This document shows, one piece after another, positions 37,888 through 53,454 of a DNA stretch of 64,000 bases (positions are counted from its first letter, which is position 1; each line of letters opens with the position of its first letter). The notes beneath the pieces are model-generated. The model made no database searches, had not been told where the DNA came from, and saw only the letters and a list, made by a program, of their open reading frames with translations. Source of the stretch: Acidimicrobiales bacterium (GTDB lineage: Bacteria > Actinomycetota > Acidimicrobiia > Acidimicrobiales > JAVJTC01). Where the stretch lies: assembly GCA_040219085.1 (NCBI GenBank), contig JAVJTC010000034.1, positions 62,001 through 126,000 on the forward strand, read 5' to 3'. Position numbers and translations under genes: made by a program.

Positions 37888-38511
37888 TCAGCCCCGGGGG
37901 ACGTCCTCGAAGCCGCGTCGCAGGAGCGCGAACATGGCGCGCACCTGGGTGGAGTACCGGCCCTGTCCGTCCATCTCGAGCCAGCGCCGACGGGCCGAGA
38001 GCATCGCGGCGACGGCGCACATTCCCACGAGACGGGCCTCTGAATCGTCGAACTTCCCCGAGTCGGCCCGTTGGGACACGAAGTCACCGATGACCGTCGC
38101 CCAGTCGTCGTGGATCCGCAGGTTCTCGGCTTCGAGGTTCTTGGAACTGTCGAGTACCCGCGACCGGGCGAGGAGTTGAGGTTCGAAGGCCGGGTCCTCG
38201 ACGATCTCGACACACGCCTCTTCGATCGCCTCCAGGAGCGGTTCGCGAGACGGTCTCCGGCCGAGCGCCGCTGCCAGCTTTGCGAGCCGCGAGTCCTGGT
38301 CGACGAACAAGACGTCGGACTTCTGTGGGAAGTAGCGGTTGAAGGTCCGCGTCGAGACATCGACGATGTCGCAGATCTCCTCGACGGTGGTCTCCTCGAA
38401 GCCCTTGTCGGCGAAGAGTTCCAGGGCCGTGGTGGCGAGCGCCTCGCGGGTCTCGCGCTTCTTGCGTTCGCGGCGGCCCTCCACCGTGGGGTCATCGATC
38501 GTGTCGGTCAC
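37888..38511 (-). CDS. TetR/AcrR-family transcriptional regulator
   Basis: 207 residues. The N-terminal HTH has the family pattern KKRETREALATTALELFADK then GFEETTVEEICDIVDVSTRT and FNRYFPQKSDVLF. The ligand domain (about 80-200) is helical, with LLEAIEEACVEIVEDPAFEP and no known specificity motif; the overall form resembles regulators of actinobacterial efflux genes. GTG 38511 start. It is transcribed towards the EamA gene across the perfect palindrome at 37839-37859. A weaker inverted repeat, TGTCG-GA-CGACA, sits at 38528-38539 upstream of its own start and could allow autoregulation. Confidence 0.88.
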   Translation of the reverse strand: MTDTIDDPTVEGRRERKKRETREALATTALELFADKGFEETTVEEICDIVDVSTRTFNRYFPQKSDVLFVDQDSRLAKLAAALGRRPSREPLLEAIEEACVEIVEDPAFEPQLLARSRVLDSSKNLEAENLRIHDDWATVIGDFVSQRADSGKFDDSEARLVGMCAVAAMLSARRRWLEMDGQGRYSTQVRAMFALLRRGFEDVPRG

Positions 38512-38527
38512 GGCGACACGCTATCGG

Positions 38528-38539
38528 TGTCGGACGACA
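38528..38539. promoter_or_regulatory. Possible second TetR half-site or autoregulatory repeat
   Basis: TGTCG-GA-CGACA is a perfect five-base inverted repeat 16 bases upstream of the TetR start. It shares the TGTC/GACA core with the 21-base palindrome but is much shorter, so the assignment is weak. Confidence 0.25.
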
Positions 38540-38626
38540 TCTGTCGGGATGGGACAAGTGTCGCAGGTCTCGCACGGGTGGCCTTGCGTCTGCCACGATC
38601 GGCGTGACGACGAAGGGAGCCCGACG

Positions 38627-39487
38627 ATGGCCGATGACGAGAACGCTGCAGACGAGAACGCTGCAGAGCGGGGTGAGGACGTCCGGATCGAGGCGGAGGC
38701 ATGGCAGGCGAAGGAGAAGGACCAGGTCGAACGTGTCCTGCGAGGTGAGTCCTCGAAAGGTGAGGTCATGGGCGAGCTCGTCGCCGAGGCCTTCACCGGG
38801 CAGGACGCGGACCGAATCCTCGGTGAGGCCGCCTTCAACGCGCCGTCGTCATCGATCCTCGACCAGCCCCTGCTCGTCGTCTTCCAACCCCCGAAGATGA
38901 TCGCGACGTCGGACACCTACACCTATTCACTGCCCGACGGAACGCAGTTGGCGGTGGGTGAGCAGACGAACCAGGGGCTCGGCCGCAAGCTCCTGCGGAT
39001 GACATCGAATCTCGACTCGCGACTGAAGACCATCGTGGAGGTCACCCAGGACGGGGCGAAGGTCTTCTCGATGGAGCGCAAGGGCGCGCTGGGGAAGAAC
39101 ACGATGGTGATCCGGGACTCAGAGGAGCGCGAGGTCGGCGAGGTGAAGCAGACGAAGCGCGACCGCAGAGCGCGGTTCGCGCTCGTCGCGGGCGGCGAGA
39201 CGTTGGCGACGGCCGACGTCGGGCGGCTCAGGCCCGGTCAGGGGTTCGACATCATCGATCCGGATGGCGACGTGGTCGCCTTCGTGCGCCGTCTCCACGA
39301 GGGGGCTTTCAAGAGCGTGACGCGCTGGGCGATGGACAGTCCCGACAACTACGTGCTGCGCATGGCGAAGCCGCTCGAAGATCCCCTACGCACCCTCGTG
39401 GTGGCGACGCCGATGTCGGTCGACTCGGCGGTCAACCAGGACGATGAAGGCCTCGACGTCGGCAAGGTGCTGCGACGTTTCCGCTGA
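38627..39487 (+). CDS. LURP-one/scramblase-like (tubby-like C2 beta-barrel) protein
   Basis: 286 residues from ATG 38627, preceded by GAAGGGAG. The N-terminal 75 residues are charged and low-complexity with a tandem DENAA repeat; the C-terminal 200 are beta-rich: LLVVFQPPKMIATSDTYTYS, then TIVEVTQDGAKVFSMERKGA, then FALVAGGETLATADVGRLR. This pattern fits the LOR/phospholipid-scramblase-related fold found in many actinobacteria; the molecular role is unknown, with membrane or lipid binding proposed for relatives. No signal peptide or membrane helix. A strong bidirectional terminator follows. Confidence 0.65.
   Translation: MADDENAADENAAERGEDVRIEAEAWQAKEKDQVERVLRGESSKGEVMGELVAEAFTGQDADRILGEAAFNAPSSSILDQPLLVVFQPPKMIATSDTYTYSLPDGTQLAVGEQTNQGLGRKLLRMTSNLDSRLKTIVEVTQDGAKVFSMERKGALGKNTMVIRDSEEREVGEVKQTKRDRRARFALVAGGETLATADVGRLRPGQGFDIIDPDGDVVAFVRRLHEGAFKSVTRWAMDSPDNYVLRMAKPLEDPLRTLVVATPMSVDSAVNQDDEGLDVGKVLRRFR
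38636..38665 (+). repeat. 15-bp tandem duplication
   Basis: GACGAGAACGCTGCA occurs twice head to tail and encodes DENAA twice near the N-terminus of the LURP-one-like protein. Perfect copies, in frame. Confidence 0.95.
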
Positions 39488-39502: not shown

Positions 39503-39536
39503 GAGAGGGGCGGGGCCTGTGCAGGCCCCGCCCCTC
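39503..39536. terminator. Strong bidirectional terminator
   Basis: AGAGGGGCGGGGCCTG pairs with its exact complement CAGGCCCCGCCCCTCT across two bases, a 16-pair GC-rich stem placed between two convergent stops (39487 and 39560). It should end transcription from both sides. Confidence 0.85.
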
Positions 39537-39559
39537 TGCCGTTCAGTGAGTGCTCGTTC

Positions 39560-40207
39560 CTAGCCTGCGAAACCGATGCCCTCGCCGGCCACGTCCGCGC
39601 CCGGGGTGGGCTCCGCAGTGGGCGTCTCGGTCGGATCCGGGGTCGGTTCCTCGGTCGGTGTGGGAGTCGCAGTGGGCGTCTCCGTCGGCGTCTCGGTCGG
39701 TGTCGGCGTGGGCGTGGGCGTGGTCAGCTCACCCGGGCAGTCACCAATGGGGCCGAGCAGGTCACAGAGCAACTCGGGTGGCTCGCAGGGATCCCGGCGT
39801 CCGAAGTCGTCGCCCGACGGCCCGGCGAATTCGTTGTCACAACACGGGTCATAGAACGAGTCGCTTCCCGGGATGGGGCGCTTGGTCGGCGCGCAGCACT
39901 CGTTGAATCCGTCGCTCGATGCGCGCTCGGTCAAGCAGCACTCGTTGAAGCCGTTGGCGTTGAGGTCGGGCTCGTAGCAGCACTCGTTGAAGCCGTCGGA
40001 GCTGAAGTCCAGCACCGGACAGCACTCGTCCACGGGGTTCGACGTGACCCCTTCCGCCTGGGGATTGCAGATCGGAATTTCCTGCTGTGCGGTGGCGGAG
40101 CCACCGGCCAGCAGGGTGAGGGGGACCGCCAGTGCGACGATCAGCCCCAACGCGCTGATGATGCCGAGCGTGCGTCGGCCTGTCTCTGTCCGGGTGATAC
40201 GTGCCAT
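39560..40207 (-). CDS. Secreted Cys-rich protein with five vicinal CC pairs and a Thr/Pro-rich tail
   Basis: 215 residues; I recognise no family. A signal peptide (about 1-40, hydrophobic core LGIISALGLIVALAVPLTLL, end SATAQQ) is followed by a region with 14 cysteines. Five are adjacent pairs at 62-63, 76-77, 90-91, 104-105 and 122-123; the first four are exactly 14 residues apart in units such as SSDGFNECC and NANGFNECC. A further CC (YDPCCDN) and singles at 47, 141, 148 and 157 follow. Residues 163-202 are a TPTPTET-type linker as in cell-wall-spanning or glycosylated surface proteins; the end is GEGIGFAG with no sortase motif. AGGAGA precedes ATG 40207. Possible metal-binding or disulfide-ladder surface protein (inference). 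Confidence 0.75.
   Translation of the reverse strand: MARITRTETGRRTLGIISALGLIVALAVPLTLLAGGSATAQQEIPICNPQAEGVTSNPVDECCPVLDFSSDGFNECCYEPDLNANGFNECCLTERASSDGFNECCAPTKRPIPGSDSFYDPCCDNEFAGPSGDDFGRRDPCEPPELLCDLLGPIGDCPGELTTPTPTPTPTETPTETPTATPTPTEEPTPDPTETPTAEPTPGADVAGEGIGFAG
39894..40029 (-). repeat. 42-bp coding repeats (GFNECC units)
   Basis: The sequence CAGCACTCGTT (plus strand) recurs at 39894, 39936 and 39978, and as CAGCACTCGTC at 40020, an exact 42-base period. It corresponds to the 14-residue CC repeats of the Cys-rich protein. Copies differ outside the NECC core, so these are old, selected repeats rather than fresh slippage. Confidence 0.9.
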
Positions 40208-40339
40208 GTGTCTCCTGGTCCCTCTCTGTGGTGGCCGTGGCCACCCAACCTGTCAGCAGCGCGACACCGTAGTCCATGGAGCTTGCGCCCACCACGTATT
40301 CCGATGCTGACTGAACAGGGTCGTAGGTCCCCGATGGCC

Positions 40340-50121: not shown

Positions 50122-50181
50122 CGGGTGGCCGTGAGCATCGTCATCGCCTGGCGGGCGACGTCGCGTCTGGGGGAGTCGCCG

Positions 50182-51246
50182 CTACTTGTAGGGCGGCGGG
50201 TAGAGGAGGCCACCGTCGACCCAGAGCCGGTTGGGGCCGCGCTCGAGGCCGAGCGGGGTGATGTGGCGCTCGTAGATCTCGCCGTAGTTACCGACCTGCT
50301 TGACCACCTGGTAGGCGAAGTCGGTCGGGAGGCCGAGTCCCGGCTGCAGAACGGTGCCGTCGACCTCGACGCCGAGGAAGGTCAGGATCAGCGGATTGTC
50401 GGAGTCGAGGAAGCTGTCCACGTTGGCGGAGGTGATACCGAACTCCTCCGCCTGGATGGTGGCGAACACGGCCCATTCCACGGCCTGTGCCCATGCGGTG
50501 TCACCGTCGCGCACGGCAGGGGCGAGGGGTTCCTTGGAGAACGTCTCCTCGAGGATCCGCAGTGCGTCGGGCCCGTCGGGATACGTGGAGCGCAGCGAGA
50601 CGAGCTGGCTGGCGTCGGAACCCCAGCCGTCACAACGACCCTCGATGAAGGCCGCCTGGATCAGGTCGGTGTTCTCGAACGAGAGCACTTCGACCTGCAG
50701 ACCGATCCGGTCGAAGGCGATGGCGACGGCACCCTCGGTCGTCGTCCCGGCGGCGACACACACCACGGTGTCGCCCATGTCCGAGATGCTTCCGTAGTCG
50801 GAGTCCGCGGCGACCATGATGCGAGAGCCGTCGTAGAAGTTGGGCTGAAGGAACGTGGCGCCCTCCACTCCGTCGCGGGTGGCGTTCCAGGTGGTGTTGC
50901 GGATGAGTACGTCGATCTCGCCGGACTGCAGCGCTGTGAACCGGTCTGCCGTCTCGAGGTCCACGAAGTTCGTGGCGGTCGAATCGCCGAGCACCGCTGC
51001 GGCGACAACCCGGCAGAAGTCGCTGTCGAAGCCGACATGGTCTCCGTCGTCGGTCAGGACCGCGAAACCGGGAAGCGCGTCGCGGGTTCCGCACCGGACC
51101 TCGCCGGCGTCGATGACGTCCTGGAGCGTCGTTCCGCCGGCGCTCGCGCCACCGTCGTCATCGTCGTCGTCGCCACATGCCGTCGCGAACAGCGCGACGG
51201 CTACCAGCAGCGCCAGCAGGCCCTTCCACTTGTTGACCGACCTCAT
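50182..51246 (-). CDS. aapJ: Amino-acid ABC transporter substrate-binding lipoprotein (AapJ/BztA-like)
   Basis: 354 residues. A lipobox (LFATACGDDDD, Cys24) anchors it to the outer face of the membrane, followed by an acidic linker. The binding domain begins TLQDVIDAGEVRCGTRDALP with GFDSDFCRVVAAAVLG, the Bztr/AapJ pattern, and shows NTTWNATRDG and GTTTEGAV in the ligand cleft. The family binds glutamate, aspartate, glutamine or general L-amino acids; exact range unknown. GAGGGA precedes ATG 51246. The gap before aapQ can fold into GGCGAC/GTCGCC, which could raise binding-protein output relative to the permeases. Confidence 0.93.
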   Translation of the reverse strand: MRSVNKWKGLLALLVAVALFATACGDDDDDDGGASAGGTTLQDVIDAGEVRCGTRDALPGFAVLTDDGDHVGFDSDFCRVVAAAVLGDSTATNFVDLETADRFTALQSGEIDVLIRNTTWNATRDGVEGATFLQPNFYDGSRIMVAADSDYGSISDMGDTVVCVAAGTTTEGAVAIAFDRIGLQVEVLSFENTDLIQAAFIEGRCDGWGSDASQLVSLRSTYPDGPDALRILEETFSKEPLAPAVRDGDTAWAQAVEWAVFATIQAEEFGITSANVDSFLDSDNPLILTFLGVEVDGTVLQPGLGLPTDFAYQVVKQVGNYGEIYERHITPLGLERGPNRLWVDGGLLYPPPYK

Positions 51247-51324
51247 GATTGTCCCTCTTCCGGGTGCGTGTCGATGGATGACGGGGCCTCTACCCAGGAG
51301 ATCTGCGGTCCAGTGGGGTTCACG

Positions 51325-51355
51325 ACCTTACTCACTGGTAGCTACGTGGTGTCAA
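51325..51355 (-). promoter_or_regulatory. Candidate promoter of the amino-acid importer operon
   Basis: On the minus strand a perfect TTGACA (51355-51350) is followed, after a 19-base spacer, by TAAGGT (51330-51325), about 79 bases upstream of ATG 51246. The spacer is longer than the ideal 17 bases. Confidence 0.45.
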
Positions 51356-51397
51356 TGGTCGGGCTTGCGGGACCTGACGACGTGCCAGGCTTGTGGG

Positions 51398-52615
51398 GTG
51401 GAGAAGACAGGTCCCGACGGGGCGGCGGTGCAGTCGGTCCGCTACGTGTCGTGGGGTGGGCTGCACGGTTATCCGACCGCCGCGGTGGGCTATCTCGGAG
51501 CCATGATGGCGGCGGGAGTGGAGGTCGGCTGGGACCTCGTCGTTCCCGACGGTCGCGGTGGATGGTGCCTGGCCCGCTCGCGCCGTCGAGCGCGCCGGGT
51601 GGCGTGTCTCGACGCGATCGAGGGGATCGACAGGGCTGCGCTCCACAGGGCCATCGGCCGCTCCGTCGCCGCGGACCTCGAGATTCTCCATGTCGTTCCC
51701 GAGCTCTGGCCGAAGCTGCGTGCCGGTGCCGGTCCGGTTGTTGGGAACACGGTCTGGGAGACCGACCGTCTCCCGCGCCATTGGCCGCGGTTGCTGAACG
51801 CGACGGACGGCGTGATCGTTCCGAGCGTTTTCAACCGCGACGTCTTCCGCGACTGCGGTGTGACCGTCCCGCTGAGCGTCGTTCCCCACATCGCGGCGCC
51901 GGCTCCGTCGTCGGCCGGGTCGCGGGAGGCGGTGGCGTTCCGGCGACGTCACAGGATCGCCGAGGGGCACAGGATCGTGTACATGATCGAAGCGTGGACG
52001 GCCCGCAAGGCACCATGGCGTGCGATCAGGGCCTTCGTTCGTGCATTCGACGGCGACGACGGGGTGACGATGGTCGTGAAGGGGCCGGTGAAGGCCCAGA
52101 GTTCGGCGGTCGATCATCGGTCGACGGGTGTCGCCGCGCAGATCGAGGCGATCCGTTCGACGGTGCGGTCACCGCCGCCCGTCGTGCTCGTCACCGGCGA
52201 CGTGACCGACCGCGAGATCCAGATTCTGCACGGAATCGGCGACTGCTACCTGTCCATGAGTCACGGCGAGGGCTGGGGTCTGTCGGTGTTCGAGGCTGCC
52301 GCGAGCGGGAATCCGGTCGTCACCACCGGGTGGGGTGGGACGCTCGAGTACCTCGGGGAGCGGTACCCCTTGCTCGTGGACTTCGACCTGGTGAACGTCG
52401 TCGATGTCGTCGGGGCGTCGTCGTTCTCCCCGGACCAACGCTGGGCCTCGGCCGACATCGACCACGCCGGGGACCTTCTCCGCCGGGTCATCGAAGATCC
52501 GGGCGCGGCGGCGGGGGAGTGCGTCTCGGCGACCGGAGACCTGCGAGGCCGGTTCTCGCAGGAGGCGGTCACGCCGGCGCTCCTGTCGGCACTGGACGTG
52601 GTGGCCCGCCGATGA
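51398..52615 (+). CDS. Glycosyltransferase, GT4-like (GT-B fold)
   Basis: 405 residues from GTG 51398 (GTG 51428 also possible; the frame stays open further upstream as antisense of aapJ). The N-terminal half starts VRYVSWGGLHGYPTAAVGYL and has GNTVWETDRLPRHW and VIVPSVFNRDVF, patterns seen in glycan-synthesis transferases. The C-terminal half carries the E-x7-E donor motif SHGEGWGLSVFEAAASGNPV. No signal peptide. The stop overlaps the next transferase as ATGA. These two plus-strand enzymes point towards the minus-strand GT2/RRE/peptide run, ten bases away, and may belong to the same pathway. Confidence 0.82.
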   Translation: MEKTGPDGAAVQSVRYVSWGGLHGYPTAAVGYLGAMMAAGVEVGWDLVVPDGRGGWCLARSRRRARRVACLDAIEGIDRAALHRAIGRSVAADLEILHVVPELWPKLRAGAGPVVGNTVWETDRLPRHWPRLLNATDGVIVPSVFNRDVFRDCGVTVPLSVVPHIAAPAPSSAGSREAVAFRRRHRIAEGHRIVYMIEAWTARKAPWRAIRAFVRAFDGDDGVTMVVKGPVKAQSSAVDHRSTGVAAQIEAIRSTVRSPPPVVLVTGDVTDREIQILHGIGDCYLSMSHGEGWGLSVFEAAASGNPVVTTGWGGTLEYLGERYPLLVDFDLVNVVDVVGASSFSPDQRWASADIDHAGDLLRRVIEDPGAAAGECVSATGDLRGRFSQEAVTPALLSALDVVARR

Positions 52616-53454
52616 CGGGCCCCCGGACGTTCCACTTCGTGTTCGGACTCAAGGCGCAGAACGCGCCGTTCCACCTCGCCCATTACCTGGCCCTGGCCTC
52701 GTGTATCCGTCACCACGACGGCGCGCGTGTCGTGATGCACCACGGGGAGGTACCCCACGGGCCGTGGTGGGACCGGATCCGACCGCACCTCGAGTTGCGT
52801 CCCGTTGAGCGGGTCGGCTGGCTCGACGACCACCCCGGCTACTTCGCCCACGACGAGGGACGCCTCATCGTGGGCGCCGGCTATGACTACGCGCACCAAG
52901 CCGACGTCATCCGCCTCGAGGTGCTCGCAGCCGAGGGCGGCATCTACGCCGACATCGACACGCTGTTCGTCGACGAGGTCCCCCGGTCCTACGACCATGA
53001 ACGGTTCGTCATCGGCGAGGAGGACGTCGGGGCCCGCCGGCGTCGCCCCCGCCGGTCACTGTGCAACGCGTTCATGGCCGCCACGGCGGGTTCCCGCTTC
53101 GCCCTGCGCTGGCTCGACCGGATCAGAGACGTCTTCGACGGGACGTGGAGCCGTCACTCCTGCACGGAGGCGGCGCTGCTGGCCGCGGAGATGCCCGGAG
53201 AGGTGACCGTGGTGTCGACCCGGCCGCACTGCGCCTTTCCGGCGACCGCCAAAGGGCTCGGCGACCTGTTCGAGCGTCGTGTCGACGTGCGCGACGGCGT
53301 CGTGAGCATCCACTGGTGGGAGCACCTGTGGTGGAGTCCGCTGCGCAGTGACTTCACGTCGTTCCACAACGGGCTGCTCACCGAGGAGTACGTGCTGGGT
53401 GCCGACACGACGTTCGCGCGTCTCGCCCGGCCGACGTTGCTGGACCCACCGTGA
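52612..53454 (+). CDS. Glycosyltransferase with DxD motif (GT32/Gly_transf_sug-like)
   Basis: 280 residues. FHFVFGLKAQNAPFHLAHYL starts the domain, with HQADVIRLEVLAAEGGIYAD and the metal/nucleotide-sugar DxD at Asp114-Asp116 (GGIYADIDTLFV), the hallmark of Gly_transf_sug (OCH1/TcdA-like) enzymes. The C-terminal part includes CNAFMAATAGSRFALRWLDR and SIHWWEHLWWSPL. ATG 52612 overlaps the previous gene's stop. It transfers an unknown sugar; whether onto peptide, glycan or lipid is open. Convergent with a GT2 gene. Confidence 0.83.
   Translation: MTGPRTFHFVFGLKAQNAPFHLAHYLALASCIRHHDGARVVMHHGEVPHGPWWDRIRPHLELRPVERVGWLDDHPGYFAHDEGRLIVGAGYDYAHQADVIRLEVLAAEGGIYADIDTLFVDEVPRSYDHERFVIGEEDVGARRRRPRRSLCNAFMAATAGSRFALRWLDRIRDVFDGTWSRHSCTEAALLAAEMPGEVTVVSTRPHCAFPATAKGLGDLFERRVDVRDGVVSIHWWEHLWWSPLRSDFTSFHNGLLTEEYVLGADTTFARLARPTLLDPP

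Follow-up and report, generated by a model that had tools for sequence, protein, structure and literature searches.

The window analyzed here, a 64,000-nucleotide stretch of DNA from an Acidimicrobiales bacterium, carries on its reverse strand a gene whose predicted product contains five pairs of adjacent cysteines (CC) arranged as a ladder. The locus raises the questions of whether this gene is real, whether its product belongs to a known protein family, and what such a ladder of cysteines might do. In the following, positions refer to the window, residues are those of the ladder protein, and the features discussed are collected in Table 1.

The Gene and Its Surroundings

The ladder gene begins with an ATG codon, and its GC content by codon position is 0.61/0.59/0.83. 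The value at the third position (GC3) matches those of two neighboring genes, which encode a ROK kinase (0.85) and a PhoD-like phosphatase (0.86). Judged from its sequence, the gene is real. A chance or decaying open reading frame (ORF) lacking function would fit the occurrence of the gene in a single genome and the failure of every search to find an orthologue, but start codon, ribosome-binding site, GC3, export-type N terminus, cysteine register and stalk all agree, and this explanation is scarcely credible.

The genes nearby are ordinary and specify an EamA transporter, TetR, the ROK kinase, the PhoD-like phosphatase, TypA and a phosphorylase; the neighboring ORF at 38339–39487 on the forward strand is without a Pfam match. 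Among plasmid-collection proteins, TypA is most similar to those of Nonomuraea (69%) and Nocardia (61.5%), in keeping with a probable actinobacterial host. The ROK and ladder genes may possibly be co-transcribed, because they run in the same direction and lie 132 bp apart. The GC-rich inverted repeat between the ladder gene and the convergent ORF is likely a two-way terminator, and it was absent from the output of a terminator scan that requires a run of T residues. Elsewhere in the window, the only match obtained for a 1109-amino-acid ORF (50125–53454, forward strand) was a short one to a glycosyltransferase DXD model, located toward the C-terminal part of the product.

Table 1. Features of the ladder gene and its predicted product (window coordinates)
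Feature	Position	Strand	Basis
Gene for the 215-amino-acid di-cysteine ladder protein (P0001)	39560..40207	-	ORF, GC3 like neighbors, AGGAG upstream
AGGAG, ribosome-binding-site-like, 4 nt upstream of ATG	40212..40216	-	sequence
Perfect 16-nt inverted repeat with 2-nt gap, GC-rich	39504..39537	.	sits between convergent genes 38339-39487 (+) and 39560-40207 (-)
Residues 1-40, signal-peptide-like N terminus	40088..40207	-	hydropathy
Residues 41-160, acidic Cys domain, 14 Cys	39728..40087	-	composition
Unit 1, residues 50-63, ending NPVDECC	40019..40060	-	sequence
Unit 2, residues 64-77, ending SSDGFNECC	39977..40018	-	sequence
Unit 3, residues 78-91, ending NANGFNECC	39935..39976	-	sequence
Unit 4, residues 92-105, ending SSDGFNECC, Ser codons unlike unit 2	39893..39934	-	sequence
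Unit 5 (degenerate), residues 110-123, ending DSFYDPCC, 18 residues after unit 4	39839..39880	-	sequence
Residues 161-203, Thr/Pro/Glu stalk	39599..39727	-	composition
Residues 204-215, Gly-rich C-terminal end ADVAGEGIGFAG	39563..39598	-	sequence

Regions of the Ladder Protein

The N terminus contains twin arginines at residues 11–12 and a long hydrophobic core, in which the 19-mer starting at residue 16 has a mean hydropathy of 2.55, and signal-peptide cleavage is likely to occur near ATA/QQ. The cysteine domain that follows has 25 acidic (D+E) vs. 5 basic (K+R) residues, while the mature protein as a whole has 34 vs. 5 and contains neither His nor Met. The tail is composed of 18 Thr and 14 Pro among 43 residues. 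These features support the description, given in a first-pass annotation, of a secreted Cys-rich protein with a Thr/Pro tail. The same annotation proposed that the tail spans or decorates the cell wall. No LPXTG motif was seen by eye, no sortase-substrate features (LPXTG-type motif, hydrophobic segment, basic tail) were found at the C terminus, which reads GADVAGEGIGFAG, and hydropathy revealed no hydrophobic C-terminal segment, the best 19-mer after residue 40 reaching a mean of 0.56. The predicted protein is without a recognizable anchor.

The Cysteine Ladder and Its DNA Repeats

The CC pairs are located at residues 62, 76, 90, 104, and 122, confirming the count of five and the exact 14-residue spacing originally noted for four of them, which spans three intervals; the fifth pair lies 18 residues beyond the fourth. 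Single cysteines at 47, 141, 148, and 157 bring the total to 14, and the distances between successive cysteines are 15, 1, 13, 1, 13, 1, 13, 1, 17, 1, 18, 7, and 9. The GFNECC core that had been assigned to the repeats is present in three of the five units, the first having VDECC and the last FYDPCC instead. Among these three units, the 18-nt core sequences are identical at 17–18 of 18 positions and the 24-nt linkers at 5–14 of 24, such that the earlier statement that the DNA repeats have diverged applies to the linkers but not to the cores.

The obvious source of the exact 14-residue period would be tandem duplication of a 42-bp unit. In 200,000 shuffles of the composition of the mature 120 residues, at least four evenly spaced CC pairs arose once, and at least five CC pairs arose 1,491 times. 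Because tandem duplication offers so obvious a source of the period, this null model speaks against coincidence only. The serines of the SSDGFNECC segments in units 2 and 4 are encoded by AGC TCC and TCG AGC, respectively, and the retention of identical serines with codons of different classes therefore favors selection on the protein. This argument is tempered by the core codons TTC, AAC, GAG, and TGC, which are of the G/C-ending kind favored in GC-rich DNA, and selection on the pattern is suggested only.

The repeated units also bear on a role in calcium binding, in which loops of the form D-x-[NS]-x-[DN]-G-F-N-E would bind calcium and the CC pairs would only brace them. Such loops are presumably comparable to those of EF-hand, dockerin, and thrombospondin type 3 proteins. 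Units 2 (DFSSDGFNE) and 3 (DLNANGFNE) have the appropriate residues and the domain is very acidic, but the first Asp is absent from units 1, 4, and 5, leaving two of five units that fit, and the Pfam EF-hand, dockerin, and TSP3 models gave no match at E values up to 10. Calcium binding by these repeats is decidedly unlikely.

Searches for Relatives

No relatives of the ladder protein were found in samples of its order, class, and phylum, the genomes of which overlap between samples, or in viral, species-genome, plasmid, and phage collections. Matches to non-self genomes were about as frequent as expected by chance: 36 of 397 in the order sample at E ≤ 0.1 (~40 expected), 5 of 395 in the class sample at E ≤ 0.01 (~4 expected), and 5 of 396 in the phylum sample at E ≤ 0.01 (~4 expected). 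No further genome of the same genus or family is among those searched. None of the 7 candidate stretches from a viral scan (IMG/VR) and none of the 19 from a species-genome scan was confirmed; the plasmid collection yielded no match to the ladder protein and the phage collection one, with an E value of 0.8. Within its own genome, the cysteine ladder was matched by the gene itself only, the ten other matches being confined largely or entirely to the Thr/Pro tail. Two weak matches in the PDB were both in the tail, as were all matches in NCBIfam and PHROGs except one inside the signal peptide (E 0.32). Six-frame translation of the non-self loci (L002–L038) revealed no comparable ladder among ORFs of at least 60 amino acids with at least three CC pairs.

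A pattern search for three CC pairs at 14-residue spacing gave 64 hits across the 397 genomes of the order sample, mostly in simple repeats, and this pattern was rejected as evidence because a reversed control pattern also gave many matches. The pattern [DN]ECC-x10-[DN]ECC identified 37 loci (34 from genome_contigs, 3 from viral_contigs), which upon inspection in frame consisted of CobW-type proteins, DNA tandem repeats, unrelated frames, and frames with stops. When the cysteine domain was compared by local blastp with the 1,688 ORFs that these loci contain, the matches in L085, L080, L076, and L081 (E 7e-5 to 0.74) were to short, repetitive frames resembling DNA tandem repeats in translation, and none was accepted as a relative.

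The neighboring ROK gene has close relatives (54% identity) in 2 of 394 non-self genomes under a strict limit of E ≤ 1e-85, and no ORF of at least 60 amino acids within ~1.5 kb on each side of these relatives encodes a CC ladder. GFNECC is not mentioned in the literature searched and, as judged from titles and the opening parts of abstracts, none of the papers deals with a secreted di-Cys ladder from bacteria. So far, the ladder protein has turned up in a single genome.

Resemblance to Galaxins and Calcarins

The first-pass annotation knew of no family with this pattern. The pattern does, however, exist in galaxins, which are coral skeleton proteins, and calcarins (Pfam PF24748, PANTHER PTHR34490), at least according to the available portion of the relevant account (PMC12419799); it is the layout that is shared, while membership in the family is unsupported, with the Pfam Galaxin_repeat model remaining well below its 28-bit cut-off. 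In the literature searched, PTHR34490 appeared in an eLife paper only. As described in the same portion of that account, galaxins and calcarins are secreted animal proteins in which di-Cys motifs 10–15 residues apart are flanked by single capping cysteines, located about one interval upstream and downstream, and AlphaFold predictions pair the first Cys of each motif with the second one of the hairpin before it (PMC12419799). Excerpts from other studies describe galaxins as secreted proteins that are rich in Thr and Ser and have an acidic pI of about 4.5 (PMC2726143) and likewise as secreted di-Cys proteins (PMC7853314).

Acidity, CC pairs ~14 residues apart, capping cysteines, and repeats attributed to duplication are common to these proteins and the ladder protein, for which the hydrophobic N terminus predicts export as well. 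Its C47 lies 15 residues before the first pair and C141 lies 18 after the last, so that spacing and caps follow the galaxin architecture, with the final step of 18 and the downstream cap slightly above the 10–15 range. The ladder protein differs in being bacterial, in its Thr/Pro stalk and last interval, in showing residue similarity only at the cysteines, in its low Pfam score, and in having five pairs, in contrast to the 10–23 di-Cys motifs given for calcarins in the portion of PMC12419799 available. Furthermore, its CC pairs are followed by PV, YE, LT, AP, and DN, whereas those of galaxins are followed by a Gly turn, and the hairpins of galaxins therefore need not be present.

Another reading is that the ladder protein is a true but distant galaxin family member, by descent or transfer. 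Galaxin_repeat was the sole Pfam model matched by the cysteine domain alone (13.4 bits); a scan with the whole protein gave 13.1 bits (E 0.091), along with a match to PcF (E 1.3). PTHR34490 members are also reported outside of animals, archaea included, in the part of PMC12419799 at hand. In small samples, however, three of five shuffles that kept only the cysteine positions outscored the real sequence against Galaxin_repeat (15.4, 16.2, and 17.4 bits), and none of five with the CC pairs moved gave a match. Two unrelated proteins that are CobW-type by Pfam (L087:3623-4879 and L101:5626-6831) reached 19.5 and 25 bits, also below the cut-off, across their His/Asp/Cys loops. Because Cys-fixed shuffles and CobW proteins score as well as or higher than the ladder protein, the model evidently sees the CC spacing. 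A Galaxin family search of the genome itself (0/1) found nothing. Family membership is most improbable, and the shared layout, which carries no evidence of homology, most likely reflects convergence. More generally, the His/Asp/DECC loops of CobW-type proteins are a false-positive trap for Galaxin_repeat, and weak matches to this model should be viewed with caution, as they track CC spacing alone.

A Proposed Staggered Disulfide Ladder

The reading favored here, which has close to an even chance of being correct, is that of a secreted and acidic protein with a structural or surface role, its short loops braced by staggered disulfides and mounted on a stalk. The second Cys of each pair would bond with the first Cys of the next (63–76, 77–90, 91–104, and 105–122), the ends of the ladder would be closed by single cysteines (47–62 and 123–141), and a 148–157 bond would close the last loop. 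The ladder would have originated through tandem duplication of the 42-bp unit, and the Thr/Pro stalk would hold the cysteine domain off the membrane or wall or else space it within an extracellular matrix. Disulfide formation, this bond pattern, and a structural role are inferred. The product is most likely an acidic protein of the surface or matrix that is exported, braced by a disulfide ladder, and carried on a Thr/Pro stalk.

An earlier suggestion was that adjacent cysteines form strained disulfides; in this reading, each CC pair would close on itself and serve as a redox switch or a rigid turn. Adjacent cysteines are certainly present, and peptide studies cited in PMC2726143, as far as the available text goes, found di-Cys motifs closed on themselves. 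Nevertheless, vicinal bonds would leave Cys 47, 141, 148, and 157 to pair among themselves and would give no reason for the even ladder and its capping cysteines. The staggered arrangement is preferred because it accommodates all 14 cysteines, and vicinal bonding is very unlikely.

An oxidant for exported thiols is likely to be present, since the genome encodes DsbB (L116:1378-2606, contig C9 near 106768; Pfam DsbB 57.6 bits vs. a cut-off of 22.1) and, directly after it, a membrane-tethered thioredoxin-fold (Redoxin/AhpC-TSA) protein with a CPVC motif; the two are likely a thiol-redox pair. Searches of this genome for VKOR (0/1) and for a DsbA-type Thioredoxin_4 protein (0/1) found neither.

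The main rival holds that the protein is an extracellular soft-metal binder, in which the CC pairs, as thiolates, and the neighboring Glu/Asp residues (NECC) would coordinate Zn, Cu, or Cd, with scavenging or buffering of metal outside of the cell as a possible role. The cytosolic tails of the plant P-type ATPases HMA2 and HMA4 likewise contain many CC pairs with acidic residues, and the accessible part of PMC6255694 reports that di-Cys motifs in these tails bind several Zn with nanomolar affinity and that the CCxxE motif of HMA4 binds Zn. That source also places a His stretch in HMA4, unlike the ladder protein. The [DN]ECC ladder pattern matches the CobW-type loops of gut clostridia as well, but bacterial CobW loops are His-rich, whereas the mature ladder protein lacks His and Met. 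In addition, exported thiols are probably oxidized given DsbB, and no metal-related gene adjoins the locus, where the neighbors are ROK, PhoD-like, TetR, EamA, and TypA. Metal binding has a good precedent in the plant tails but is unlikely here. The readings considered are not all mutually exclusive.

Against the staggered ladder itself stand the lack of a homologue for a conservation test, the small number of pairs (five vs. 10–23 in calcarins), and the occurrence of the same CC spacing in CobW proteins, where it lies in metal-binding loops within the cytosol. AlphaFold2, run without relatives, gave pLDDT values of 47.2 (whole protein) and 39.9 (cysteine domain); because there are no relatives, no usable structural model was obtained.

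Implications

The ladder protein is a genuine and striking orphan whose architecture, familiar from animals, was probably reached independently, by duplication, in one bacterium; orphan here means within the searches made, in which records very near its own genome may be left out. The more specific proposal, that a bacterial lineage independently arrived at a galaxin-type staggered disulfide ladder as a five-rung scaffold on a mucin-like stalk through 42-bp duplication, is rather doubtful. If true, it would show that evolution can readily arrive at a di-Cys ladder outside the cell, both in bacteria and in animals. Should the disulfides prove to be staggered, the protein would provide a small, single-gene di-Cys ladder model that is easier to express and map than the galaxins of corals and sponges, for which the disulfide scheme, in the portion of PMC12419799 available, rests on structure predictions. 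It would also display the beginning of a ladder, with three near-identical 18-nt cores and free linkers. If the product is merely a metal binder or the ORF is decaying, it has little importance. The ladder protein is in any case a small test case and not a new kind of system.

Other Proteins with Repeated Cysteine Pairs

The His-Asp-Cys loops of the CobW-type GTPases L087 and L101, from gut clostridia, resemble the ladder in presenting DECC at steps of 10–19 residues; they differ in belonging to a cobW-domain enzyme, in being His-rich, and in lacking an export N terminus by eye. Eight further loci (L075, L079, L083, L086, L090, L095, L096, and L100), mostly from gut clostridia, also appear by eye to be CobW-type. 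In a metagenome-assembled genome of the Nannocystaceae, a frame without a Pfam match at E values up to 0.1 (L094:1530-2759) contains 18 CC pairs, most of which recur at 7-residue steps (SDDPCCG). Like the ladder protein, it is apparently an exported CC ladder, and it differs by its period of 7.
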